This document shows positions 1,949 to 27,767 of a DNA stretch of 27,767 bases, piece by piece. Made by a program: the position numbers and the translations under genes. The notes under the pieces were generated by a model. The model made no database searches, had not been told where the DNA came from, and saw only the letters and a program-made list of their open reading frames with translations. The stretch lies in the IMG/VR virus record IMGVR_UViG_3300049596_000905, positions 1 to 27,767 of that record, one strand, 5' to 3'. The first letter of the stretch is position 1. Every line of letters begins with the position of its first letter. The stretch is from a virus.

Positions 1949-2416
1949 ATGAAAAAATTATATTTCTTAGATGAAGAAGAGAAACAAAGAATTTTGAATA
2001 TTCACGAAAGTGCAACAAAACGTCAATATTTGGGTGAAGCGCCTATGGTCAATAATACTAACGTCCCAAATAATAGTCCGGAAGAAAGACAAAAAAATAT
2101 CACAAAAGTTTATTGTGGTCTTAAAAATGGTGTAATAACAGCCGGTGTGCAAAAAGATAATAAATGGGACGTTTATGTAAAAGAGTATACCGTATTACCA
2201 AAAGAAATAGATATTGCTAAAAAATCTTGTCCTAAAACAAATAACCCTCAACAGTATAAACAACAAATTATTAATAAAACAAACGATACTACAAAACAAA
2301 TTCAAGGATTATTAGGGTTAGAACAAACAGGTAAAATGGATTCCGGTTTATTACAAAAAATAAATGATAAACTAAACGGTAAACCTCAAGAGGCACCTAA
2401 AGTAGGGGTTAAATAA
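1949..2416 (+). CDS. Putative capsid-targeted internal protein A
   Basis: A 155-residue basic protein of unknown function. Its first 30 residues (EEEKQRILNIHE, then ATKRQYLGE) closely match the N-termini of the genes at 3117 and 5062 and, more loosely, 2429. The segment ends in LGE followed by A31, the (I/L)xE site type cut by T4 gp21 when it trims internal proteins. A gp21-like protease is encoded at 23884. I infer a capsid-targeting sequence removed after E30. Near the C-terminus (IQGLLGLEQTGKMD) there is a weak resemblance to a peptidoglycan-binding repeat. It is the first gene after a late-type promoter motif and is 12 bases from the next gene. The alternative is a cytoplasmic protein whose N-terminus has another role. 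Confidence 0.7.
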   Translation: MKKLYFLDEEEKQRILNIHESATKRQYLGEAPMVNNTNVPNNSPEERQKNITKVYCGLKNGVITAGVQKDNKWDVYVKEYTVLPKEIDIAKKSCPKTNNPQQYKQQIINKTNDTTKQIQGLLGLEQTGKMDSGLLQKINDKLNGKPQEAPKVGVK

Positions 2417-2428
2417 TTAAATACAAAA

Positions 2429-3115
2429 ATGAAAAAAGTTATATTAGAAGAAATTGAAAATATGAAATACCTTTTGGGGTATCAAAGAGGTGTTGTTATT
2501 TCTGAACAAGAAGTGGAAAAAGATGATATGATTGATAAATATTCGTCTAAATCAATTGCAAATCAAATTGATTCAGGAGATTTGGCAAATCTAAATCCTG
2601 CCGCCGCTGACGCAATTAAAAAAACTCAGAATATGGTTGGAGGACAATCTCTATTACCTAACGTGACGACAGGAACTCCGGCAACAGGGGCACCGGCAAC
2701 AGGAGCACCGGCAACAGGAGCACCGGCAACAGGAGCACCGGCAACAGGAGCACCGGCAACGGTAGCAGCAACTCCGGTAACCCCAATAAATATTGGTGTA
2801 AAATACCCTTCAATTGAGGAATTACAAAATACGTTAATTACTAAATTTCAATCAGGGTTAAATAAGGATGGTAAGTATGGTCCTAAAACCGCTGCGAGTG
2901 TTTTAGCGGCTTTACAAAAAGTACCGACAAATAATACCGAAACAAAAACACCGGAAAATCCCGTTGTTGGAGACGCGTCATCTGATGCAATTAAGAAAAC
3001 GGCTGAAGCAAATGCTTCAACTAATGTTGTTGCGAATAATGACCAAAATAAAAATACACAACCAACGGCAGGTGGGAATAATTCTGTTGAGGTAGACGGA
3101 AGCGAATTTGCATAA
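2429..3115 (+). CDS. Putative internal protein B with peptidoglycan-binding-like domain
   Basis: A 228-residue protein. The N-terminus (MKKVILEEIENMKYLLGY, then VVISEQ) is a diverged version of the tag in its neighbours, with a predicted cut after ISE (E26). Residues about 82-111 are six five-residue units of the type TGAPA/T, a flexible linker. Residues about 128-164 (EELQNTL, then DGKYGPKTAASVLAALQ) fit the PG_binding_1 pattern, where a D-G-x-[YF]-G-x-x-T turn is typical. The remaining C-terminus is Asn/Thr-rich and looks disordered. The layout tag, linker, cell-wall-binding module suggests a packaged protein that contacts peptidoglycan during entry; this is inference. Its stop lies one base before the ATG of the next gene. 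Confidence 0.7.
   Translation: MKKVILEEIENMKYLLGYQRGVVISEQEVEKDDMIDKYSSKSIANQIDSGDLANLNPAAADAIKKTQNMVGGQSLLPNVTTGTPATGAPATGAPATGAPATGAPATGAPATVAATPVTPINIGVKYPSIEELQNTLITKFQSGLNKDGKYGPKTAASVLAALQKVPTNNTETKTPENPVVGDASSDAIKKTAEANASTNVVANNDQNKNTQPTAGGNNSVEVDGSEFA
2669..2758 (+). repeat. Six 15-bp tandem repeats (TGAPA linker)
   Basis: Six in-frame copies of a 15-base unit, ACAGGAGCACCGGCA in its commonest form, encode the Thr-Gly-Ala-Pro-Ala linker of internal protein B. Copies 3 to 6 are identical, and the run is more GC-rich than the rest of the gene. Confidence 0.9.
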
Positions 3116-3116
3116 T

Positions 3117-4364
3117 ATGGAAAATTTATTTATAATTAACGAAGAGGAAAAAAATAGAATTTTAAATCTTCACGAAACGGCAACTAAAAGACATTATTTG
3201 TCTGAACAGGTAAAAAAAGGTTCTCAGGGTGACCCATATGAGTATAAATTGGAAAATGGTGTTTATTATTTTAGGAACGCCGACAAAGGTGAAACAAAAT
3301 GGGTGACAGCTAACAAAGACCAAAGTGATAGTATAAAAACAAAAATTTTTGGGAATAAAACACCTGAAACAAGTGTACCAAAAAAGAATGATAAATTTAA
3401 ACTTAAAGATAAATTTAAAGACAAAGAATATAATACTGTTACAAAAGATACATTTAAAGACACATTTCAAGATGTTACGTTAAAAAAACAAGTTGAATAT
3501 GCCATTAAATCGCTAGCCGATACTGAAAAAGAAATAGGTAGAGTTTCTAAAAAAACATACGAACAAATCAAACGTATAAAATCTAAAGGAGTTCTTAAAA
3601 AGAATACTTTTATTGTTGTTAATAAAGATGCTGCGTTGGCATCATTATTTGGTCCTGATTACAAATTTATAACTAAATCGTCAATTACTTCAGGAAAAGT
3701 GAAAGATGTTAAACCAGTTGATAATACTAAACTTGGTTACGGAGAGTGGAGAAAAGTCTCCATCGATTATGCCAAAAAAAATCCAACATTACCGGAAAGT
3801 ATAGTTATCAATAAATGGCTTGAAAAAGCGAAAACTTTACCAGGATTAATTAAAAGTGACGGAACCATTGATGATTCTAAATATAAAGAATATGTTAACG
3901 ACAAAAAAATAAAAGAATTCCAATATTCATATAAGGCTCGTGAAGATGCGGGTCAAGATATCACACCTGGTGGTACATTTAGTTTAAGTTCCGGATATAA
4001 TAAAAAAGGATATGCAGCGTCCGATACTTCAAATACTTTCCCACTTTTTAATGTAGAAACAGGTGAACAATTACCAAACGCTGTTCACGGATATGCTGGT
4101 CAAAAAAGAGGTGATTTAATAAAACAATTTGGAAAACAAGATGTTAACGCATCTAAAGAACTATCTAGAGCTGGGTCGGGATGTATTAATGTTGATGAAA
4201 ACTTTATTAAAAATATTAACAAATATAAACCAACGTATGTTATAATTATACCGGATAATAATCAATTGGTTGATGTTAAAATTGTTACATTTGATACTTG
4301 GACAGAAAAATTAGCAGAATTAGGTGGTAAATGTACACGTACATTAATATCTCTTTTTTCATAA
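3117..4364 (+). CDS. Putative internal protein C with L,D-transpeptidase-like core
   Basis: A 415-residue protein. ATG 3117 is chosen over an in-frame TTG at 3108 because it gives an N-terminus aligned with those of the genes at 1949 and 5062 (NEEEKNRILNLHE, ATKRHYLSEQ). The predicted gp21-type cut is after LSE, E30. The C-terminal 100 residues carry AVHGYAG (H324) and, 32 residues on, GSGCINV (C356), in the order and spacing of the YkuD L,D-transpeptidase site (HG...S-x-GC-[IV]-[RN]). This suggests action on peptidoglycan peptides, either cross-linking or hydrolysis. The middle (residues 60-280) is Lys-rich and unrecognised. With protein B it forms a cell-wall-directed pair. Detection rests on a short motif, so the fold is likely but unproven. 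Confidence 0.7.
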   Translation: MENLFIINEEEKNRILNLHETATKRHYLSEQVKKGSQGDPYEYKLENGVYYFRNADKGETKWVTANKDQSDSIKTKIFGNKTPETSVPKKNDKFKLKDKFKDKEYNTVTKDTFKDTFQDVTLKKQVEYAIKSLADTEKEIGRVSKKTYEQIKRIKSKGVLKKNTFIVVNKDAALASLFGPDYKFITKSSITSGKVKDVKPVDNTKLGYGEWRKVSIDYAKKNPTLPESIVINKWLEKAKTLPGLIKSDGTIDDSKYKEYVNDKKIKEFQYSYKAREDAGQDITPGGTFSLSSGYNKKGYAASDTSNTFPLFNVETGEQLPNAVHGYAGQKRGDLIKQFGKQDVNASKELSRAGSGCINVDENFIKNINKYKPTYVIIIPDNNQLVDVKIVTFDTWTEKLAELGGKCTRTLISLFS

Positions 4365-4370
4365 TTTTTT

Positions 4371-4400
4371 TTGGTAAATAAAATAAATTTCATATCTTTG
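4371..4400 (+). promoter_or_regulatory. Host-type promoter TTG-N19-TATCTTTG
   Basis: TTG at 4371-4373 and TATCTTTG at 4393-4400 are separated by 19 bases, an exact match to the Bacteroidota -33/-7 architecture. The box ends four bases before ATG 4405, the same spacing as at the M20 peptidase gene. The predicted transcript is therefore leaderless or nearly so. Confidence 0.75.
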
Positions 4401-4404
4401 TGGT

Positions 4405-5007
4405 ATGAAAAATTTATATAAAACATTTGCGATATTATTAACCCTATTAATCTCAACAAGTTATATTGGGTTAAAACCACAATCAAAAGAAATTTCTATT
4501 GTGGTTATTGGTGAGTTCCCTAAAAAAGACGTGGAATTTGTTCAAAAGAAGTTAAAAAAATTTTACAATTGTAAGGTTAATATTCTACCAAAAATGGACA
4601 TTCCGGTAAGTTGTAAAGTTAAAGGGTTACGAAAATATTCTTCAGTTAAAATTGTTAAATTATTAAATTTGAAATTTAAAAACGTTGAAGGTAAGGTTGT
4701 TGCGTTAACACAAGTTGATATTTGTACCGACAGAAAATTAAATGGTAAAACTTTTAAAAATTGGGGTGTAATTGGTTTGTCATTAAAAGGAACTAAATCT
4801 TGTGTTGTTTCAAATAAAAGAATGGAAACAAATTATTATGGTAAATTAGAAAAAGTTTCTATTCACGAAATAGGACATTCTTTAGGAATACCACACTGTG
4901 AATCTAATAGTAAATGTTTAATGAATGATGCTAAAGGTAAAGGTTCTAAAATTGATAAAGAATTATTATGGATGTGTGATGATTGTAAAAATAAAATAAA
5001 ATATTAA
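4405..5007 (+). CDS. Archaemetzincin-like zinc metalloprotease, exported
   Basis: A 200-residue protein with the archaemetzincin signature HEIGHSLGIPHC (H154, E155, H158, H164), followed by C165, C171, the Met-turn M173 and a final CDDC pair (C191, C194). The family pattern is HExxHxxGxxHC-x4-Cx-M...CxxC. Upstream stretches such as LTQVDIC and SCVVSNKRM also match the family (usually LTxVD and VVSxxRL). Residues 1-22 form a hydrophobic signal-like segment without a lipobox Cys, so it is likely exported to the periplasm; family members are usually cytosolic, which makes this unusual. It lacks the N-terminal tag of the genes on both sides and has its own host-type promoter and terminator. It looks like a separately regulated insertion in the cassette. 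Substrate unknown. Confidence 0.85.
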   Translation: MKNLYKTFAILLTLLISTSYIGLKPQSKEISIVVIGEFPKKDVEFVQKKLKKFYNCKVNILPKMDIPVSCKVKGLRKYSSVKIVKLLNLKFKNVEGKVVALTQVDICTDRKLNGKTFKNWGVIGLSLKGTKSCVVSNKRMETNYYGKLEKVSIHEIGHSLGIPHCESNSKCLMNDAKGKGSKIDKELLWMCDDCKNKIKY

Positions 5008-5031
5008 GAGACTCCGGTCTCTTTTTTTTTT
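5006..5031 (+). terminator. Rho-independent terminator with TCCG loop
   Basis: Stem AAGAGAC / GTCTCTT with loop TCCG and a T tract. The stem is the same as in the hairpin after the M20 gene (1896), and the loop differs by one base. It overlaps the archaemetzincin stop codon. Confidence 0.85.
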
Positions 5032-5036
5032 GTAAT

Positions 5037-5048
5037 ATATTTATAATA
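5037..5048 (+). promoter_or_regulatory. Late promoter motif ATATTTATAATA
   Basis: Variant of the TATTTATA motif, 13 bases before ATG 5062 and just after the terminator of the preceding unit. Confidence 0.5.
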
Positions 5049-5061
5049 AAAAACTAACAAT

Positions 5062-5481
5062 ATGAAAAATTTATTTAATGATATTTCTCAAGAAGAGAAA
5101 AATAGAATACTTGAGATGCACTCAGGTAAAAAAAATGTAATCTCTGAACAATCTATAGGTGGGGCAATTGATTGGGTTAAGGAAAAAGTTAAAAGTATTT
5201 TACCCAGTTCTTTTAAAGCTGAAGCAACAGTTGAAGGTGATATGGTAATGGAATTTCCGGTTGTTGATATTAATTATAATAAGGGAGGATATGTTGATAT
5301 GAGGATTAAAGACCCAATTAATGGTGATATATTATTTGTTCAGAATTTTGAAGGCCCGATATTTAAGGCGGAAAATAGTAGTAAAAAATATAAAAGTTCG
5401 TATTTTACTAATATCAACACTAAAAATTGGAAAACTATTGCAAAACAAAATAAGATACCAGTATTTGAGACTATGGTATAA
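5062..5481 (+). CDS. Putative capsid-targeted internal protein D
   Basis: A 139-residue protein of unknown function. It begins MKNLF, then EEKNRILEMH and NVISEQ, the same tag as proteins A and C, with a predicted cut after ISE (E29). The mature part of about 110 residues appears to be a beta-rich domain: alternating hydrophobic strands such as MVMEFPVVDINY and YVDMRIKDP, ending KIPVFETMV. No enzymatic motif is seen. It has its own late-type promoter motif and converges on the Clp gene through a shared bidirectional terminator. Confidence 0.65.
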   Translation: MKNLFNDISQEEKNRILEMHSGKKNVISEQSIGGAIDWVKEKVKSILPSSFKAEATVEGDMVMEFPVVDINYNKGGYVDMRIKDPINGDILFVQNFEGPIFKAENSSKKYKSSYFTNINTKNWKTIAKQNKIPVFETMV

Positions 5482-5495
5482 TAAGAAACTAATAT

Positions 5496-5526
5496 AAAAA
5501 AAGAGGACTAATTGTCCTCTTTTTTC
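5496..5526. terminator. Bidirectional terminator between convergent genes
   Basis: Stem GAGGAC (5503-5508) / GTCCTC (5514-5519) with a TAATT loop, flanked by an A run on the left and a T run on the right, so it can terminate in both directions. It overlaps the last codons of the clp gene. Confidence 0.85.
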
Positions 5527-7553
5527 TTTCTTGTCTTTTTGGTGGGTTCAGTTTTAACTACCACTTCTTTTTCTACGGAGATAAGGGTGTATGGAACACC
5601 CTCCACCATATTTCCTTTGATAATCTCTTCAGATACAAAATCCTCAATCTTATCTTGGATTGCTCTTTTAATTGGTCTAGCCCCGTAGGTTTCATCAAAC
5701 CCAACTTCGGAGATTAGTTCTAAAATAGTTTCATCAAACGTGATATCATATTTCAACCCAACTAATCTTTTAGATAATTTATCCAATTCCAAAGTTACAA
5801 TTTTCTTAACATCTTCTTTAACCAAAGAGTTGAAGATAACAACTTCATCTATTCTGTTTAAGAATTCCGGTGTAAAGAATTTTTTAAGTTCTTTTTTAAG
5901 AATATCTCGTTTGTATTCTTCTTCTGCGTAAGTGGTATTTCCGGTTTTGAATCCAACACCCGAACCAAAATCCTGTAATTTTTTAACCCCCACGTTTGAT
6001 GTCATAATGATGACACAATTTTTGAAGTTAATCTTTCTCCCCATACCATCGGTAAGGTGACCGTCGTCTAATACTTGAAGTAGTGTTCCAAAAATATCTT
6101 TGTTAGCTTTCTCAATCTCATCAAATAGAATTACAGAATAAGGTTTGTTTTTTACTTGTTCGGTTAATTGTCCGCCTTCATCGTATCCAACGTATCCCGG
6201 AGGTGCTCCAATTAAACGTGAGATAGAATGTTTTTCTTGGTATTCAGACATATCCACACGAATCATATTATCTTCACTACCGAACATTTGTTTTGCTAGT
6301 TGTTTTGCCAAGTATGTTTTACCAACACCTGTTGAACCTAAGAAGATAAATGAACCGATTGGTTTGTTTGGGTCCTTAATACCAATTCTGTTTCTACGGA
6401 TTGATTTCGCAATCTTTGAAACTGCTTCAGATTGTCCAATAACTTTATCAGATAGGTTTGTCTCCATCTCGGATAATAGTTTAGTTTCATCGGCATTTAA
6501 TTTGGTAACCGGAATTTTAGTCATATTAGAAACAACCTCATAAACCAAATCAAGGGTAATTACTTTCTTGTGTGTAAGAAGTTCTTCTTCAAACTTTTTC
6601 TTTTCAGTTTCAAGTTTGGTTAAGATACGTTTTTCTTTATCACGTAGGTTTGCTGCCTCCTCATAACGTTGTTGTTTAACAACATCCACTTTTTCTTGTT
6701 TGATGTCAGCAGCTTGTTGTTTTAACTTCTCAATTGACTCTGGCATTTTAATTTCCACCTGACTTCTTGCTCCAACCTCATCAATAATATCAAACCCTTT
6801 ATCAGGAAATTCTCTATCTGTGATGTATCTGTCGGCTAAATCAACACATACTGACAATACTTCATCCGTATAAGTTACCTTATGGAAGTTCTCGTATTTG
6901 TCTTTTACATTTTTAAGAATGATTAAGGTTTCTTCTTTGGTTGCGGCGTCCACAACAACTTTTTGGAAACGTCTTTCTAATGCTCCGTCTTTCTCGAAGT
7001 TTTTTCGGTATTCATCTAAGGTTGTTGCTCCAACACATTGAATCTCTCCACGAGCAAGTGCCGGTTTAAAGATGTTTGATGCGTCCATTGAACCTGATGA
7101 ATTTCCCGCCCCAACTATGGTGTGAATTTCGTCAATAAATACAATGATGTTTGGTGCACTTTGAAGTTCTTCAATAATAACTTTCATTCTCTCTTCAAAT
7201 TGTCCACGATATTTGGTACCGGCAACAATTGATGTCATATCTAAGGATACGATACGTTTGTCCATTAAGTTTCTTGGACACTCCCCATTATAAATCATAA
7301 TGGCAAGACCTTCAACGATTGCGGTTTTACCACAACCAGGTTCTCCTATTATAATTGGGTTATTTTTCTTTCTACGTGAAAGGATTTGGGCGATTCGTGT
7401 GATTTCTCTTTCTCTACCAATTACCGGGTCAAGTTTACCCTCTTCAGCAAGTTTTATTAAATCTCTACTAAAATTGTCTAATACGGGTGTTGATGAGTCA
7501 GATTTAACTGCTTTATTACCACCATTACTTCCACCATCTAAAGATTCTATCAT
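5508..7553 (-). CDS. ClpC-like AAA+ unfoldase lacking the N domain
   Basis: A 681-residue protein with two AAA+ modules. D1: Walker A GEPGCGKT (70-77), Walker B VFIDEIH (138-144). D2: Walker A GSTGVGKT (406-413), Walker B ILFDEIEK (475-482). Between them lies a coiled segment with a UVR-like motif ([18 protein letters not shown], about 294-311), which points to ClpC rather than ClpB. The Clp N-terminal repeat domain is absent: the protein enters D1 after about 25 linker residues, whereas ClpC has about 150 more. The D2 loop contains VGF (533-535), at the place of the ClpP-docking tripeptide, so pairing with host ClpP is plausible. The C-terminus is a Lys-rich tail. Likely role: ATP-driven protein unfolding during takeover or assembly. 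It is the only large reverse-strand gene, with a host-type promoter at 7609-7638. Confidence 0.93.
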
Positions 7554-17687: not shown

Positions 17688-20414
17688 ATGGGAACAATTA
17701 TAGAAATATTAACAACAAATTATGACGGACAATTGGCCGACATTATCTTTTACCCTTGTTCGGGGGGCGTTGTTAATGTTGGTAATGTTATTTTACCATA
17801 TAATTATGAAACTGAAAATTACTATGGTACATACCTAATTTATATATATAATTACGATAAAACTTGTTCGTTAGTAGTTCCTTGTTTATCCCCAACCCCT
17901 ACACAAACACCGACAAATACTATTACCCCTACTAACACAATAACACCTACAATAACAGAAACCCTAACAATGACACCAACACAGACAAATACGGAAACCC
18001 CAACAAACACACCAACACCTACAAATACATCAACACCGGCAAATACGGAAACCCCAACAAACACACCAACACCAACAAATACGGAAACCCCGACAAACAC
18101 ACCAACAAATACTGTTACTCAAACTCAAACTCCTACAAATACTTCTACACCAACAAATACTCAAACTCAAACACCGACACCTACACCGACACCTACATCA
18201 TTACCTCCAACAATTGAATATTTCCAAGATTGTTGTTATCCAACAATTAGATATAAAGTAGGTGGTGTTACAATACCGATTACTGCTGGAGAGATATATT
18301 ATATTACAACTAATGGATTCAATGGATGTGTTACAGCAGTTAGTGGTCCAGCATATGATAACCAATATGAATTGACAACTATTTCGTTATACGCAAGTTG
18401 TCTTTTATGTATTGCGGTTAATCCGTGTATTCCATTAACCCCTACACAAACACCTACAAATACAATGACACCTACAAACACAATCACGTCAACAAACACA
18501 GAAACACCAACACAAACTCCTACAAATACAATGACACCAACTAATACAATGACACCAACTAATACAATGACACCTACTAATACTATAACTCAAACAGAAA
18601 CACCAACACAAACGCCTACAAACACAATGACGCCTACAAACACAATGACACCTACAAATACAATGACTCCGACTCAAACAATTACCCCAACCAATACAAT
18701 TACTCCAACTAATACGCCAACAAATACAATGACTCCTACAAATACATCAACACCAACAAATACTCCTACAAACACAATGACACCTACAAATACATCAACA
18801 CCGGCAAATACGCCAACAAATACAATGACGCCTACAAATACAATGACGCCAACTAGAACATCAACACCGGCAAATACGCCTACAAACACAATGACTCCAA
18901 CAAACACAGTGACACCAACAATGACTAAAACACCGGCAAATACGCCAACAAATACAATGACTCCAACAAACACAGTGACACCAACAATGACTAAAACACC
19001 GGCAAATACGCCAACAAATACAATGACTCCAACAAATACAATGACGCCAACAATGACTAAAACACCGGCAAATACGCCTACAAACACAATGACGCCAACA
19101 AATACAATGACGCCAACAATGACTAAAACACCGGCAAATACGCCTACAAACACAATGACGCCAACAAATACAATGACGCCAACAATGACTAAAACACCGG
19201 CAAATACGCCTACAAACACAATGACGCCAACAAATACAATGACGCCAACAATGACTAACACTCCGAGTAATACTCCGAGTAATACTCCAACAATTACACC
19301 AACAAAAACTGTAACACCGACAATAACATTAACTAACACACCGTCAATCACACCTACGAGAACTGTAACACCAACTGTAACACCAACAATAACTCCTACA
19401 AATACGCCAACTAGAACTGTAACACCAACACCGACTCAAGAAGTTGCAATATTATGTGTGTGTTATACATTATATTACACCGAATCAATATTTCCAGCCC
19501 CTTACATTGGGTTTACAAATTATCAATATGTTAATTGTGCGGGAGTCGTAACAAATCAAGGTGTATCTGAATTTGGATTACCGGTAGATGTTTGTGCTCA
19601 AGAAGATAGTGTTGTAAAAACCGGTGGTGATGGTAGTGGTTTTTGGGAAATAGCTGGATACGATTGTTGTTTACCTCCACCAACACCGACCCCAACACCA
19701 ACAACACCACCAACACCATTTTTATGTGTAACAGACTTTAATTATGGTACAAGTGCTTCTATTGTTTGTAATTTCCCAGCACTTGATTTTAATTGTGCCG
19801 ATAGTTGTGATTTGTGTTCAGCAACAATGTTAAATTCGGGTGACGGAATGGGTAATTGTTATTTATCTCCTGCAACTGCGGGGTGGTATAGTGATGGAAC
19901 AAATCGAAGATATTGGGACGGTACATTTTTTGGACTTTGTTCTTTGTGTAGTGGAGGATGTTTAGTTTCTGATACTATAATAACATTATCCGATGGGTCA
20001 ACTAAACTAATACAAGATGTTCTAGTGAATGATGTACTTAAATCTATTGATGTTTCAGGAATGCCACAACCATCAAATGAATGGTACTCTTGGAGTAGTG
20101 ACACATTGAATTATGTTGATTCAACATCAACAGTAATTAATTTTACAACATACGAATTTGATTCAGTTGTTAATATTAATGAAGGTAGATTAATTGCTAC
20201 TGATTCTCATAACCACGTTGTTAAACAAAATGGTGTTTGGTACATCAGAACAACATCTGAATTAAATGTTGGTGATGTATTATTAGATATGGATAATAGT
20301 GAATTTGAAATTACATCATTAGTTACAATCACAGAACCAACAACGGTTTACGACATTGACGTTAATAATAGTAACTTGTATTTTGCAAATAATGTTTTAA
20401 CTCACAATAAGTAA
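17688..20414 (+). CDS. Giant Pro/Thr-repeat protein with C-terminal Hint domain
   Basis: A 908-residue protein starting 14 bases after the preceding repeat protein. Order: a short N-terminal domain (about 1-65); Pro/Thr/Asn repeats; a Cys-rich module (about residues 180-245) paralogous to one in the upstream protein; a very long Pro/Thr/Met repeat block (about 246-585); two Cys-rich modules (about 586-757); and a Hint (hedgehog/intein) domain, residues 758-908. The Hint domain starts at C758 in GGCLVSDT, has block B TDSHNH, and ends VYDIDV...NNVLTHNK, with a penultimate Asn preceded by His. No homing endonuclease is present. Self-cleavage or ligation of the mature protein is plausible. Likely a virion surface fibre, by analogy with its neighbour; this is inference. 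Confidence 0.8.
18431..19437 (+). repeat. Long Pro/Thr repeat tract with 66-bp units
   Basis: About 1 kb of degenerate TPTNT-type codons. Inside it, five tandem 66-base units start at 18927, 18993, 19059, 19125 and 19191, each beginning AAAACACCGGCAAATACGCC and encoding 22 residues ([10 protein letters not shown], then MTPTN-type). The last three copies are identical, pointing to recent duplication by recombination or slippage. Assembly or length errors are possible here. Confidence 0.9.
19959..20411 (+). other. Hint (intein-like) autoprocessing domain
   Basis: Encodes residues 758-908 of the upstream-starting gene. Nucleophile Cys at the first position, T-x-x-H motif in TDSHNH, and C-terminal His-Asn followed by only Lys and the stop. 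At about 150 residues it is the size of a mini-intein or bacterial intein-like domain. Confidence 0.85.
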
Positions 20415-20478: not shown

Positions 20479-22362
20479 ATGGAAAATAATCAAAATACAG
20501 ATTTAACGGTTTGGCAGAGGCTCTCACAAGCATTCGGGCCAAACTCGTTGTTAAATCAAGACTACCCAACATACAAATTAGATAAAAAAGAGTTATTAAA
20601 AACTACTTCACAGGCGGAATACGAAAGAGAAAAATTACAAGCTCAACAAACGTATTATTTATCCAACCAATGGACTAAAATTGAAAGTAATTTATATACT
20701 CAAGCTGTTTATTATGAACCAACTCGTTTAGCATCGTTTTACGATTATGAAAGTATGGAGTATACTCCTGAGATATCTGCAGCCTTAGACATCTATGGTG
20801 AAGAATCAACAACTGTAGATGAAAATGGACATATGTTACAAATTTATTCTGAATCAAAAAGAATAAAATCTATACTAGCCGATTTATTTAACAACGTATT
20901 AGATGTTAATACAAATTTAACTATGTGGACAAGAAATACTTGTAAATATGGTGACAATTTTGTTTATTTAAAATTGGATTCAGATAAAGGTATTGTTGGA
21001 TGTATGCAATTACCAAACATTGAAATAGAACGTTTGGAAAGAGGTATGGCAGCCAAATCGGCAAATATTGATGAACCGGCAGAAAACAAAGGATTAAGAT
21101 TCAAGTGGAAAGCAAAAGATATGGAGTTCAACTCTTGGGAGATAGCTCACTTTAGATTATTGGGTGATGATAGAAAACTTCCTTATGGAACTTCTATGTT
21201 AGAAAAAGCAAGACGTATTTGGAAACAGTTATTGTTATCTGAAGATGCAATGTTAATTTATAGAACTTCAAGAGCACCTGAAAGACGTGTATTTAAGGTT
21301 TTTGTTGGTAATATGGATGACAAAGATGTTGAACCATATGTACAACGTGTTGCAAACAAATTTAAAAGAGACCAAGTTGTGGATTCTAAAACTGGAAACG
21401 TGGATATGAGATTTAATCAAATGGCTGTTGACCAAGATTATTTTATTCCTGTTCGTGACCCAGCCGCAGCATCCCCAATAGAAACATTACCGGGAGCACA
21501 AAATTTAGCGGAAATCGCCGATATAGAATACATTCAAAAGAAATTATTAACAGCTCTTCGTGTACCAAAAGCCTTTTTAGGGTTTGAAGAAACAACCGGA
21601 GATGGTAAGAATTTATCGTTACAAGATATTCGTTTTGCAAGAACAATTAATAAAATTCAAAAATCTATGATTGCCGAATTAAATAAAATTGCAATCATAC
21701 ATTTATTTTTATTAGGATTTGAGGATGAATTATCTAACTTTACTTTAGCCCTTACTAACCCATCATCACAAGCAGATTTATTAAAAATTGAACTTTGGAA
21801 AGAAAAAATTGCATTATACCAACAAGGTGTAGCAGCAATCGCAGGTATTGCACCGGTATCTGTATCGTGGGCTAAGAAACATATTTTAGGATTCTCAGAT
21901 GAGGAAATTAAACTTGATTTACAACAACAAAGAATTGAAATGGCGGTAGGTGCTGAATTAACAAATACAGCAACAATTATAACACATACAGGTATCTTTG
22001 ATAATATTGATAAATTATACGGTAACCCAACATCCGGAGCAACTGCGGGTGGAGCGACACCGTCATCACCACCACCTCCGGGCGGAGGAGGAGGATTCGG
22101 AGGAGGTGGAGATCTAGGTGGAATGGAAGATTTAGGTGGACCTGAAGAAGGAGCGGCACCTGAATCAGGTGGAGCACCTGAAGCCGCACCGGCACCGGGA
22201 GGTGAAGCTGAAGTAACTCCTGAATCGTTTAACAGAGATAATTTAAAAATATTGGTGGAAAGAAGTACTATGACTGAGGACGAATCTTTTATTGATTTAT
22301 CTAAAGGAAAAAATTCTTTAGGAGATATTGAGGCTCAATTAAGTAAACTTCTAAAAGATTAG
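20479..22362 (+). CDS. Portal protein (T4 gp20-like)
   Basis: A 627-residue dodecameric portal subunit, the DNA channel at the head vertex and docking site for the terminase. The typical gp20 N-terminal part is visible: YEPTRLASFYDYESMEYTPEISAALDIYGEES, then SILADLFNNVLDVNTNLTMWTRNTCKYGDNFVYLKLD. Later come GAQNLAEIADIEYIQKKLLTALRVPKAFLGFE and a helical stem. It is about 100 residues longer than T4 gp20 (524); the extra length is mainly a Gly/Pro/Ala/Glu-rich segment (about 520-585) before an acidic helical end. Position upstream of the protease, scaffold and capsid genes agrees. A late motif precedes it. Confidence 0.92.
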   Translation: MENNQNTDLTVWQRLSQAFGPNSLLNQDYPTYKLDKKELLKTTSQAEYEREKLQAQQTYYLSNQWTKIESNLYTQAVYYEPTRLASFYDYESMEYTPEISAALDIYGEESTTVDENGHMLQIYSESKRIKSILADLFNNVLDVNTNLTMWTRNTCKYGDNFVYLKLDSDKGIVGCMQLPNIEIERLERGMAAKSANIDEPAENKGLRFKWKAKDMEFNSWEIAHFRLLGDDRKLPYGTSMLEKARRIWKQLLLSEDAMLIYRTSRAPERRVFKVFVGNMDDKDVEPYVQRVANKFKRDQVVDSKTGNVDMRFNQMAVDQDYFIPVRDPAAASPIETLPGAQNLAEIADIEYIQKKLLTALRVPKAFLGFEETTGDGKNLSLQDIRFARTINKIQKSMIAELNKIAIIHLFLLGFEDELSNFTLALTNPSSQADLLKIELWKEKIALYQQGVAAIAGIAPVSVSWAKKHILGFSDEEIKLDLQQQRIEMAVGAELTNTATIITHTGIFDNIDKLYGNPTSGATAGGATPSSPPPPGGGGGFGGGGDLGGMEDLGGPEEGAAPESGGAPEAAPAPGGEAEVTPESFNRDNLKILVERSTMTEDESFIDLSKGKNSLGDIEAQLSKLLKD

Positions 22363-22384: not shown

Positions 22385-23104
22385 ATGAAAAATTTCGGTT
22401 TATTAAAAACAAAGATAGAAAATGTGTTGTTAGAGTCATATACTAACGACACGTTCAAAAATGAATTAAAAACATTTAAGAAACTGGTTATAGAAAATAA
22501 AAACATTAGCAAATTGTTTTATTTATACGATGAACTAAGTTCTCCAAAATCATTAAAAGAGTCTTACTGTAATGATTACATCAATGAATGTATTAAAATT
22601 TATGAGAATACCGTAAACAAATTAAAACAATCAGATGTTAATCAATTAAATGCTTGGGTAGGAAATAAAAAAGTAGAAAATAACTATACAGATATTGATA
22701 CATTATTCTCTAGCGATGTTTTAACTATTGAATCAAAAATTAAAAGTAGAAAAATTATTGCGGAATCTCTTAAAAAATTACCAATAACAAAAACCGAAGG
22801 AATTGATTTACCATTGTCTACTATGGTAAGTGTTGCAAATAAAACTATCAAAAGTTATATTGATGGTTTAAATGAATCAGATAGAAAAGAATTAATTAAT
22901 TTATTATCAGAAGATGATTCAACATTGAATGAAAAATACAACACACTTAAAGAAGGTGTGGTTGAAAAATTAACAGAAATGAAAAATGGTAGCAACGATA
23001 CTTCGATGCAAACAAGAATTGATGAAACTATTTCAAAAGTAATTTCTGAAAAATACGATAAACTTACGTATTTCAAACTTAAGAATCTTAGAGAGAATCT
23101 TTAA
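22385..23104 (+). CDS. Unidentified helical protein in the gp67/gp68 position
   Basis: 239 residues, Lys/Glu/Asn-rich and almost entirely helical by composition; family not recognised. T4 has the small prohead core genes 67 and 68 between portal and protease, so a role in prohead assembly is possible by position only. An early LLES segment gives no clear cleavage site. Its stop codon overlaps, tail to tail, the stop codon of the reverse-strand bS21 gene, leaving no room for a terminator between them. Confidence 0.75.
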   Translation: MKNFGLLKTKIENVLLESYTNDTFKNELKTFKKLVIENKNISKLFYLYDELSSPKSLKESYCNDYINECIKIYENTVNKLKQSDVNQLNAWVGNKKVENNYTDIDTLFSSDVLTIESKIKSRKIIAESLKKLPITKTEGIDLPLSTMVSVANKTIKSYIDGLNESDRKELINLLSEDDSTLNEKYNTLKEGVVEKLTEMKNGSNDTSMQTRIDETISKVISEKYDKLTYFKLKNLRENL

Positions 23105-23883: not shown

Positions 23884-24609
23884 ATGAATTTAAGAATATT
23901 ACAACCAAGTGAATCTGGAAAAGGTATATTAGTTGAGTACGATGCGGGGTATATTAACCCAAATGATAATCGTAATGAAACTTTAATTAGAGAATCTAGT
24001 GAAATGTTAGACCACTCTAAACCAATTGAATTTTATGCCGTATTACAAAAATATGACACCCCAAATAGAAATGGTAGATTATACCCTGAACGTATATTAA
24101 AAAGAGAAGCTGAGAATTATAAAAAAATGATTAAAAAGGGCACGTCCCTATCCGAGTTAAATCACCCGGAATCATCTCTAATTGATTTAGATAGAGTTTC
24201 TCATATGATTACTGAAGTATGGTGGGAAGGTAATGTCCTAATGGGCAAGATAAAACTACTTACATCACCGGGATATCACGAAAGTGGGATTTGTTCAACC
24301 AAAGGTGATATAGCAGCTAACTACCTAAGACAAGGTGTAACATTAGGTATCTCATCAAGAGGTGTAGGTTCCCTTAAAAAGATTGGTGAACAAAATGAAG
24401 TTCAAGACGATTTTGAATTAATCTGTTTTGACTTAGTATCTTCACCGTCAACTCCGGGAGCGTATCTATTCTTAAATAAAGAGGATAAACAACTATACGA
24501 CGAGAACTTAGAAGAAGAGAAAAAAATAAGTGTTGAAAGACACGTTGGAGATTCCGGAAATAAATCGCTTGACTTAATGAAAAAATTAAACGATTATTTG
24601 GGATACTAA
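23884..24609 (+). CDS. Prohead maturation protease (T4 gp21-like)
   Basis: A 241-residue serine protease of the phage prohead class. Visible motifs: YDTPNRNGRLYP (57-68), typical of the family; ELNHPESSLIDL with H94; LGISSRGVGS with S157/S158; and ICFDLVSSPSTPGA with D183 as candidate third residue. In T4, gp21 cleaves scaffold, capsid and internal proteins after (I/L)xE. Candidate sites of this type occur here in the capsid protein (INE-A), the scaffold (LSE-Q) and four internal proteins. Length is close to T4 gp21 (212). It has a perfect late-type promoter motif and is followed after 14 bases by a small gene. Confidence 0.93.
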   Translation: MNLRILQPSESGKGILVEYDAGYINPNDNRNETLIRESSEMLDHSKPIEFYAVLQKYDTPNRNGRLYPERILKREAENYKKMIKKGTSLSELNHPESSLIDLDRVSHMITEVWWEGNVLMGKIKLLTSPGYHESGICSTKGDIAANYLRQGVTLGISSRGVGSLKKIGEQNEVQDDFELICFDLVSSPSTPGAYLFLNKEDKQLYDENLEEEKKISVERHVGDSGNKSLDLMKKLNDYLGY

Positions 24610-24999: not shown

Positions 25000-26520
25000 A
25001 TGGCAAAAGAAAAATCTTTAGTTGAAGAGGCTATCATCCAAATGAAAAATTTGGAAGAGGCAGTCGCTGAAAATGCAAAAGGAATACTTGCTTCTACAAT
25101 GAAACAAGAAATCAAAGACCTAGTAAAAGAATCTTTATCAGAACAAGCTGATGATGAGATTGAAACCGATGACGTTGAAATGGATGAGCCTATGGGTTCT
25201 GATGATATCGCTGATATTGATATGAGCGACGATGAATCAGATGAAGAAGGTGACGAAATGGATACTGATGATATGGACGACGAAGAAGATATCGAATTCG
25301 ATGACGAAGAAGATATGGACGACGAAGACGATACCATCGATTTAACTGACGCAGACGATGAAGAAGTACTTAGAGTATTTCAACTTATGGGACCAGATGA
25401 TAATATTGTCGTAACAAAAGACGACAAAGGAAACACTCACCTTAAAGATGAGGAGACTGGTAAAGAGTATATGATTGTTGGCGAAAGCGAAGAAGATGAA
25501 GAAGAATTAGACGAACAAGAAGATGGAATGGATGATGAATCTATTGAATCTATTGTTGAAAGAATGTTTAGTTCTGATGACGAAGAAGACGAAGACGGAA
25601 TGGCGTTTGAAGAGTTTGACGAAGAAGATGGAATGGACGATGAAGAAATCGTTTATGAAATCCAAATGGATGACGAAGAGTTAGATGAAGAATTCGACGA
25701 AGAATTAGACGAAGAATTTGACGAAGAATTAGATGAAGAAATGGAAGACGATTCTATTTACGAATCTAAAAAAGCTACAATCAAACCTAAAGGAGTTGGA
25801 ATCGGAAGTCCAAAATTCAAATATAACGCAAAACCTAACCAAGGAACAGGATTCAAAACTAAAATGAAAGAGGCTCCTAAATCTGTTGGTACAGGTAAAG
25901 CTAAATTTGATTTCAAAGACGGTGAAAATGCTGGGACTAAACTTGGTAAAAACAAAATGGTTAAAAAAGTTGAAACTAAAGAACAATTTGATGAAAAACC
26001 TGTTGTAAAAAAATCTGAAACAAAAGAGGCTGTAAGAACATTAGGTTCAGGGTCTAATTTCAGAAAAGGTGGTTTACCAAAACCAAGAGCTCACTCTAAA
26101 TTTAATACAGCTATCAAAGAAAGTACTTCTAATACAGAACTACAAATTCTTAGAGAGAAAAATGAAGAGTACAGAAAAGCACTTAATGTTTTTAGAAGTA
26201 AATTAAACGAGGTTGCAATATTCAATTCAAACTTAGCTTACGCTACACGTTTGTTCACTGAACATTCAACATCAAAACAAGAAAAAATTAACATTTTAAG
26301 AAGATTTGATGGTGTTGAAACTATTAAAGAATCTAAAAATTTATATCAAGTCGTTAAAAATGAATTATCCTTAGATACTAAATCTCAAAATATGAATGAG
26401 TCAATCGAAAGAACAATTGCTAAATCACCTTCTACAGGAGCAGTTAACTTAATTGAATCTAAAACATATGAGAATCCACAGTTCTTAAGAATGAAAGATT
26501 TAATGACAAAAATTAAATAA
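25000..26520 (+). CDS. Prohead scaffold/core protein (T4 gp22-like)
   Basis: A 506-residue internal scaffold around which the capsid shell assembles. After a helical N-terminus (with LVKESLSEQ, a gp21-type site after E48) comes a very acidic tract (about 50-250, including DEEL/DEEF repeats), then a Lys-rich linker with two related units (GVGIGSPKFKYNAKPNQGTGF and SVGTGKAKFDFKDGENAGT-like), then a helical C-terminus. The latter contains KLNEVAIFNSNLAYATRLF, followed by QEKINILRRFDGVETIKESKNLYQVV, a pattern typical of T4-type scaffolds. It is about twice the length of T4 gp22 (269), mostly from the acidic tract. Position directly upstream of the capsid gene supports the call. Expected to be degraded or cut during maturation. 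Confidence 0.85.
   Translation: MAKEKSLVEEAIIQMKNLEEAVAENAKGILASTMKQEIKDLVKESLSEQADDEIETDDVEMDEPMGSDDIADIDMSDDESDEEGDEMDTDDMDDEEDIEFDDEEDMDDEDDTIDLTDADDEEVLRVFQLMGPDDNIVVTKDDKGNTHLKDEETGKEYMIVGESEEDEEELDEQEDGMDDESIESIVERMFSSDDEEDEDGMAFEEFDEEDGMDDEEIVYEIQMDDEELDEEFDEELDEEFDEELDEEMEDDSIYESKKATIKPKGVGIGSPKFKYNAKPNQGTGFKTKMKEAPKSVGTGKAKFDFKDGENAGTKLGKNKMVKKVETKEQFDEKPVVKKSETKEAVRTLGSGSNFRKGGLPKPRAHSKFNTAIKESTSNTELQILREKNEEYRKALNVFRSKLNEVAIFNSNLAYATRLFTEHSTSKQEKINILRRFDGVETIKESKNLYQVVKNELSLDTKSQNMNESIERTIAKSPSTGAVNLIESKTYENPQFLRMKDLMTKIK
25672..25746 (+). repeat. Acidic codon repeat (DEEL/DEEF)
   Basis: Short 12- to 15-base units of GAC/GAT-GAA-GAA plus TTA or TTC/TTT encode alternating DEEL and DEEF within the scaffold's acidic tract. 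Confidence 0.75.
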
Positions 26521-26555: not shown

Positions 26556-27767
26556 ATGGGAGCATTATTAGAATCAGGTCTAGTTGGTAACATCGGGTTA
26601 AAACACCTTAAAGTTATTAAAGAAGACACAATCAACAAATGGGATAAATTAGGATTCCTAGAAGGTCTTAAAGGACATATGAGAGAAAACGTAGCTCAGT
26701 TATATGAGAATCAAGCGTCTTTCTTAATAAACGAAGCGACAGGAGAAGGTTCAAATGGTTCATTTGAAACAGTTGTATTCCCTATCGTAAGAAGAGTATT
26801 CTCTAAATTATTAGCGAATGAAATCGTATCTGTACAAGCTATGAACTTACCAATCGGTAAATTGTTCTTCTTCGTACCAAAAATTCAAGGATTTACAGGA
26901 GCAACATCTGCTAATGGAATCCCTGAAAGTTCAGGACAACACTACGCACCAATCGGTTCTCCGGGTAATTATCCTGGTGATGTAAATGGTGGTTACGGAA
27001 CGTCTACAGGAGCTTACCAAAAAAATCTTTATGATTTATTCTACGAAGGAACTGAACCAGGTTTAGACCCTGAAGGTTTATTCGATTATTCTAAAGGTAG
27101 ATGGTCAGCAATCACTGCTACTTGTACTACTGTAACTTGGGTTAACGGTGATTTAACTAAAACTGCTCTTCCATCTGGTGAAGCAAGAAAAATCTTAGTT
27201 GCAATGACAGGTTTCTCTAACACAGGTGACGGAAAATTAATCGGACCAAACGGTCAAGAAATGGATTCTGAAGAATTTTTATCAGGTCTTAGATTATTTA
27301 CTGCAACTTCAGGTGTTGCTACTGATTTAGGTGTTTCTACATTTACTAACTTATTATTTAGAGTTGTTACTCAAAAATATGGTAAAGGAATTGTTGAATA
27401 CGGAAATACTACAACAGCAACATTCGCAAATTTAGGTAACGGAGGTTCTTTCAAAGATATTTGTGACTCTCAAGGTACAATCTATTTAGAAGTTGATACA
27501 CAAAGACCAGTATGTGCTGATTGTGGTTCAAATAGTTTAGATGGATATTCAGGAGCAACTTTATCAGCTGCTAACTGGAGTGGAGCATCTCAAGATACTG
27601 CGATTAAAGCGGTATTCAGACGTTACGAAGAATTAGAATTTGAAGACAAAATCGGTGAGGTTTCTTTTGATTTAGATTCAGTTACTGTATCTGTTACAGA
27701 AAGAAAATTAAGAGCACAATGGTCTCCTGAGTTAGCTCAAGACGTTGCGGCTTTCCACAACATCGAT
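26556..27767 (+). CDS. Major capsid protein (T4 gp23-like), 3'-truncated by window edge
   Basis: 404 codons are visible and the frame is open at the right edge. The N-terminal region (DTINKWDKLGFLEGL..., then YENQASFLINE-A) aligns with the T4 gp23 propeptide, whose cut is after FLTE at residue 65; here the equivalent site is after INE, E60. Further matches are FPIVRRVFSKLLANEIVSVQAMNLP (T4: MVRRAIPNLIAFDICGVQPMNSP) and VTERKLRAQWSPELAQDVAAFHNID (T4: AKSRQLKAAYSIELAQDLRAVHGMD). A Cys pair, CADC, lies in the segment between these. No separate late motif is seen in the 35-base gap after the scaffold, so it is probably co-transcribed with it. The leader is A-rich without an SD. Confidence 0.94.
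   Translation, partial: MGALLESGLVGNIGLKHLKVIKEDTINKWDKLGFLEGLKGHMRENVAQLYENQASFLINEATGEGSNGSFETVVFPIVRRVFSKLLANEIVSVQAMNLPIGKLFFFVPKIQGFTGATSANGIPESSGQHYAPIGSPGNYPGDVNGGYGTSTGAYQKNLYDLFYEGTEPGLDPEGLFDYSKGRWSAITATCTTVTWVNGDLTKTALPSGEARKILVAMTGFSNTGDGKLIGPNGQEMDSEEFLSGLRLFTATSGVATDLGVSTFTNLLFRVVTQKYGKGIVEYGNTTTATFANLGNGGSFKDICDSQGTIYLEVDTQRPVCADCGSNSLDGYSGATLSAANWSGASQDTAIKAVFRRYEELEFEDKIGEVSFDLDSVTVSVTERKLRAQWSPELAQDVAAFHNID

Follow-up and report, generated by a model that had tools for sequence, protein, structure and literature searches.

Four proteins encoded in the window, our term for the whole 27,767-nucleotide stretch of DNA analysed here, begin with short tags that we interpret, with a probability of about 80%, as cleavable T4-type capsid-targeting propeptides of new sequence that load many different cargos. 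The window is a piece of an uncultured virus record, with a head region of T4 type and jumbo-phage relatives. At the level of sequence, we observe the tags themselves, their N-terminal placement, a constant xxE end, their modularity, a motif shared with the scaffold, and co-occurrence with a gp21-type protease. In the mechanism we propose, the N-terminal 26-30 residues would act as a cleavable capsid-targeting propeptide, whose helix (residues 9-30 in tag A) would dock the precursor on the scaffold or core of the prohead while the head assembles. The phage’s gp21-type protease would cut after (L/I/V)xE, freeing inside the head a cargo whose new first residue is mostly glutamine, and the freed cargo would be ejected with the DNA at infection. 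Tag families A-D would do the same job and be swappable between cargos, and one genome would load some 13-26 or more different proteins by means of them. A modular packaging tag had been put forward in a preliminary description of this DNA, and all comparative tests able to break that reading support it; what we infer is that the precursors bind the scaffold and are cut, and that the cargos reside in the head and are ejected.

All four tagged genes lie on the plus strand. The first (1949-2416) encodes a 155-residue protein in which tag A (residues 1-30, 1949-2038; N-terminus MKKLYFLDEEEKQRILNIHESATKRQYLGE/A, with the slash marking the predicted cut) ends at a predicted LGE/A cut site (E30/A31) and precedes a 125-residue cargo with no assigned function, homologues of which lie behind tag A in contigs L004, L072 and L123. 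The second (2429-3115; 228 residues) joins tag B (residues 1-26, 2429-2506; N-terminus MKKVILEEIENMKYLLGYQRGVVISE/Q; predicted cut ISE/Q, E26/Q27) to a linker rich in A, P and T and a weakly endolysin-like (PG-binding-like) C-terminal part; it matches PHROG endolysin families at E-values of 0.0012-0.016, and a Pfam search gave no match. In the third (3117-4364; 415 residues), tag A (residues 1-30, 3117-3206; N-terminus MENLFIINEEEKNRILNLHETATKRHYLSE/Q; predicted cut LSE/Q, E30/Q31) is followed by a short module (GDPYEY) and then by a C-terminal region whose SGCI motif, by eye only, is reminiscent of L,D-transpeptidases. Over the tag and GDPYEY module, this protein is 57% identical to one in L076 whose C-terminus is YkuD/Tlde1; a Pfam search for an L,D-transpeptidase identity gave no match in the 3117 protein itself, and no confirmation. 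For the tag of this protein, AlphaFold2 with 51 aligned tags predicts a single helix spanning residues 9-30 (mean pLDDT 93 for residues 11-20), while the full protein modeled without an alignment was uninformative (pLDDT 36.5). The fourth gene (5062-5481; 139 residues) carries tag A (residues 1-29, 5062-5148; N-terminus MKNLFNDISQEEKNRILEMHSGKKNVISE/Q; predicted cut ISE/Q, E29/Q30) on a 110-residue cargo with no assigned function and a homologue at 50% identity behind tag A in L112.

Correcting the preliminary description, the cassette (1949-5481) also holds an untagged gene (4405-5007, plus strand) for a protein with an M54-type metallopeptidase domain (Pfam PF07998, 1.7e-6, over the cut-off) and a hydrophobic, signal-peptide-like N-terminus. 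Adjoining the tagged genes is an M20/M28-like peptidase gene (1079-1897; below cut-offs), and beside them on the opposite strand is a gene for a ClpA/ClpB-like AAA+ protein, recognised by eye from the sequence (5508-7553). Farther along the window, 17688-20414 encodes a PT-repeat protein whose C-terminus ends in VLTHNK and resembles a splicing domain of intein/Hint type (PF14890, below the cut-off at E 3.3e-4).

The consensus of tag A is MKNLFxISEEEKNRILxLHESATKxxYLxE/Q, that of tag B MKKxILEEIExMKYLLGYKRGVVISE/Q (core EIxxMKYLLGYKRGVVISE/Q), that of tag C MKKIIRLTESDLxRIVKRVIxE/Q (LTESDL), and that of tag D MKIIITESQYxxLxxE/ (ITESQY). The pattern originally recognised at the N-termini of the 1949, 3117 and 5062 proteins was confirmed by an IMG/VR search with a degenerate nucleotide pattern encoding EEK-x-RIL-x-[ILM]-H, which found the tag A core in at least 101 distinct viral proteins. 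The motif lies 7-12 residues after a Met in 99 of the 101 listed; the other two have no in-frame upstream Met, and one of these starts at the edge of the stored stretch. The same pattern gave 32 matches in 84,980 bacterial and archaeal genomes, none of them a real tag by inspection. The 2429 protein, first taken for a diverged version of this tag, instead belongs to a separate tag B family with about 20 distinct cargos among the matches listed. Tag B is placed as tag A is, except for chance matches and a few C-terminal copies, and about 150 of 158 tag C matches among those listed start at most seven residues from a Met. These IMG/VR counts are lower bounds drawn from non-random samples in which many contigs are fragments.

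Two related genomes, G027 and G031, each contain tags A, B, C and D together. G027 (308 kb) is the nearest near-complete relative of the window phage, with 92-97% amino acid identity in the portal, protease and core protein. A profile search (E 0.01) identified about 26 tagged proteins in G027 and about 13 in G031; here, as in the window, tags sit on otherwise unrelated proteins of one genome, and the phenomenon is much larger than first reported. Chance origin of the tag similarity is excluded: profiles built with the window’s own copies included score 50-61 bits in the window, whereas its ORFs, shuffled 20 times, give no score above 9 bits. The proposal of a new, lineage-specific tag holds in part, as the consensus differs from that of T4 (compared by description), but there are at least four tags and they span a broad phage group rather than a single lineage. 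Among cultured phages, tblastn with tags A, B and C, short and thus insensitive queries, returned nothing at E 10 from 50,697 phage records; the whole 3117 protein had no match at E 0.01 in these records, and Microcystis phage Mel-JY01, whose protease is the best match, lacks tags A, B and C. A literature search, with subscription papers mostly outside its scope, found no earlier description of these tag motifs.

Tags B and C also occur at C-termini or between two protein parts (L161:1586-3031, L194:5150-5902, L234:854-1579 and L261:1648-2730). In L261:1648-2730, tag C stands between a first and a second cargo, and the whole may be a polyprotein. The simple N-terminal-tag model does not apply directly to these few C-terminal or internal tags.

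Among the matches listed, [LIVM]xE follows the core in 83/83 tag A and 20/20 tag B proteins with non-redundant cargos, compared with 26% and 23%, respectively, of control windows further along the same proteins. The search patterns for tags A and B did not include this end; the E was part of the tag C pattern and ATG part of the tag D pattern, so neither of those features is independent evidence. The linker before the terminal E varies in length, placing it at residue 21-35 in tag A and 25-28 in tag B. L or I, rather than V or M, opens the motif in 79 of 83 tag A and 19 of 20 tag B proteins, and the P1 Glu is invariant in alignment A2 and nearly so in alignment A1. The residue after the E is Gln in 56/83 and 20/20 proteins, respectively. 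T4 gp21 cuts with the specificity L/I-x-E, and the first ten residues of T4 IPIII are sufficient for targeting (PMC9026906); the gp21-type (I/L)xE end initially proposed for the tags is thus well matched. The tags might alternatively stay uncleaved and either direct proteins to a destination within the infected cell, such as a replication compartment, or serve as inhibitory prodomains, since most cargos are without a known domain and cleavage is something we infer. We find this distinctly improbable, given that all 83 cargo-distinct tag A proteins have a Glu preceded, two positions earlier, by a hydrophobic residue, a pattern that, like the motif shared with scaffold proteins, is hard to explain without a common protease.

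The head module of the window follows the same xxE rule. Its terminase, portal gp20, prohead protease gp21 and major capsid gp23 all score above Pfam cut-offs. On the plus strand lie genes for the gp20-type portal (20479-22362; Pfam Portal_T4, 2.4e-79), a probable prohead core protein (22385-23104), the gp21-type prohead protease (23884-24609) and, between gp21 and gp23, a probable gp22-like scaffold (25000-26520); the gp23-type major capsid protein is encoded at 26556-27767 (Pfam Gp23, 7.6e-19). The protease, already recognised as gp21-like in the preliminary description, matches PHROG 207 (2.5e-44) and Peptidase_S77 (5.6e-24, over the cut-off) and contains LNHP and GISSRG stretches. The scaffold has 12 [LIVM]xE[QASG] sites where 3.2 are expected, including LSE/Q and LDE/Q, and the core protein has five where 0.8 are expected; the portal has none against 3.0 expected, and the terminase count is at expectation. 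Two structural-region genes, 9093 and 10833, are also enriched in the cut motif. Across 16 homologues of the scaffold, the counts for [LIV]xE are 37 with S as the next residue (9.4 expected), 21 with A (6.3), 14 with Q (3.8) and 20 with N (7.5), and in 15 homologues of 22385 the next residue is enriched mainly for S, N and T; in all long ORFs of G027 and G031, such counts are about 1.0-1.6 times expectation. The predicted gp23 processing site, LINE/A (residues 57-60 of the capsid protein; 26724-26735, plus strand), lies where such a site is expected and is unchanged in 30/30 aligned relatives. Together with LINE/A, the scaffold and core enrichment indicates that the prohead core of these phages shows the rule too, E/Q included. 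Gln follows [LIV]xE at 14 of 174 scaffold sites, far less commonly than after the tags, so protease preference alone is not a full explanation for it.

Of 50 contigs tested for PHROG 207, one (L163) was left out as a chance match. The gp21-type protease (PHROG 207 near 1e-44) is present in 40 of the 49 remaining, tag-bearing contigs, compared with 2,498 of 50,697 phage records; among the contigs tested, the tags do not occur mainly in those lacking such a protease. Protease-negative tag contigs that were checked for a portal lack it as well, so that the head module, and not just the protease, is missing from these records. L101, outside the portal-checked set, has gp23 and no gp21, and in two large contigs, of 274 and 214 kb, tag C is present with no detectable gp21, portal or gp23. 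Eleven chance-match contigs, most of them short, have neither protease nor portal. Peptidase_S78, considered as a substitute protease in gp21-negative contigs, was absent from 12/12 contigs tested and thus does not account for the gp21-negative ones.

Clustering of 397 tagged proteins among the matches listed gave 224 cargo clusters, 66 with more than one member, and 12 of these 66 stand behind more than one tag type. For example, a cargo with the motif YNYNxAIQCFLNK is joined to tag A in L003 and, at 73% identity, to tag C in L189, and the part common to cargo homologues with different tags starts after xxE. Judged from sequence, the tag is a module exchangeable between cargos. Annexin-repeat-like proteins occur among the tagged cargos (L062:2-505, PF00191 E 2e-5; L239:1596-2027, by eye), and three members of this cargo were matched across two tag sets.

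The DNA of the tags has pS of 0.49-0.67 and pN of 0.16-0.21, values partly biased by selection through the search pattern; their synonymous sites are strongly diverged, so recent DNA copying does not account for them. The shared 5' ends could still be promoter/start cassettes spread by recombination and encoding a functionless peptide, as a ATATTTATA box upstream of some tagged genes (1927-1935 before 1949 and 5037-5045 before 5062, both plus strand) means that promoter and tag could travel together. This is highly improbable, because residues are kept while synonymous sites diverge (partly a pattern-selection bias), different tags have the same xxE end, and genes 2429 and 3117 are tagged with no box within 60 bases. 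A ATATTTAT-type box lies shortly before the start codons of 1949, 5062, 9093, 22385, 23884 and 25000. A box of this kind precedes the protease, core and scaffold genes, and in relatives also tail and head genes; it is possibly a late promoter. Its frequency before tagged genes in two genomes is 30-31%, against 14-16%, and given this weak enrichment we kept it out of the main evidence.

Most tagged cargos have no recognised domain; the few recognisable ones are mainly of cell-wall type (PG_binding_1, YkuD/Tlde1 and OmpA), and one cargo has a PHROG match to a tail-associated lysin. Cell-wall domains on several cargos could also suit tail-associated proteins, with the tags docking elsewhere in the virion (on the tail tube, baseplate or tape measure) and xxE forming a binding surface or being cut by another protease. 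We consider such docking unlikely, as the xxE end is constant despite variable linker length, prohead core proteins are enriched in this motif, with partly the same residues after it, and T4 gp21 substrates are head proteins (PMC9026906).

Capsid-targeting sequences cut by gp21 are known from the T4 internal proteins IPI, IPII and IPIII (reviewed in PMC9026906). As there, the tags are putative short N-terminal propeptides that end in (L/I)xE and are carried by proteins otherwise unrelated to one another, in phages with T4-type gp20, gp21 and gp23. Compared by description, tags A-C are longer (about 22-30 residues, against 10-20 in T4) and differ in consensus; at least four interchangeable families serve some 13-26 or more cargos per genome, the next residue is mostly Gln, and several cargos are of cell-wall type. 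T7 gp16, also compared by description, is an internal head protein with peptidoglycan-cleaving activity and gives a precedent for a head-carried, ejected cell-wall enzyme, although it is not known as a tagged protein processed by a gp21-type protease. In phiKZ and SPN3US, ejection and inner-body proteins are processed by a gp21 homologue, and SPN3US gp53 and gp54 have 15 identical N-terminal residues in common (PMC5694885). These jumbo phages likewise have many head proteins with N-terminal propeptides removed by the prohead protease, a step predicted here; however, several of their propeptides exceed 100 residues and end in A-x-E or S-x-E, whereas the tags are short, reusable for many cargos and follow L/I/V-x-E.

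For several signal peptides of G027 and G031, cleavage at the likely site would expose Gln, as in the Bacteroidetes Q-rule, by which signal peptide cleavage exposes Gln (PMC5837995, PMC10653852); this points to Bacteroidota hosts. That an N-terminal Gln is selected on the cargo, perhaps as pyroglutamate, we offer simply as a testable idea. A broader and tentative possibility is a multi-tag loading code: each genome would pack dozens of proteins into the head, many of them with the host envelope as their target, and cutting would leave these with an N-terminal Gln, as Bacteroidota exported proteins have under the Q-rule (pyroglutamate). As infection begins, ejection would deliver them to the periplasm, where they would act as stable effectors.

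Overall, the tags suggest a general code for loading proteins into a virus head, and their interchangeability raises the question of what common scaffold feature they recognise. They give exact predicted mature N-termini that can be used in mass spectrometry. Tags A-D may serve as a search key to predict, from its genome, which proteins of such a phage are packaged in the head; through them, hundreds of unannotated proteins of uncultured phages are predicted to be packaged in the head and probably injected into the host.
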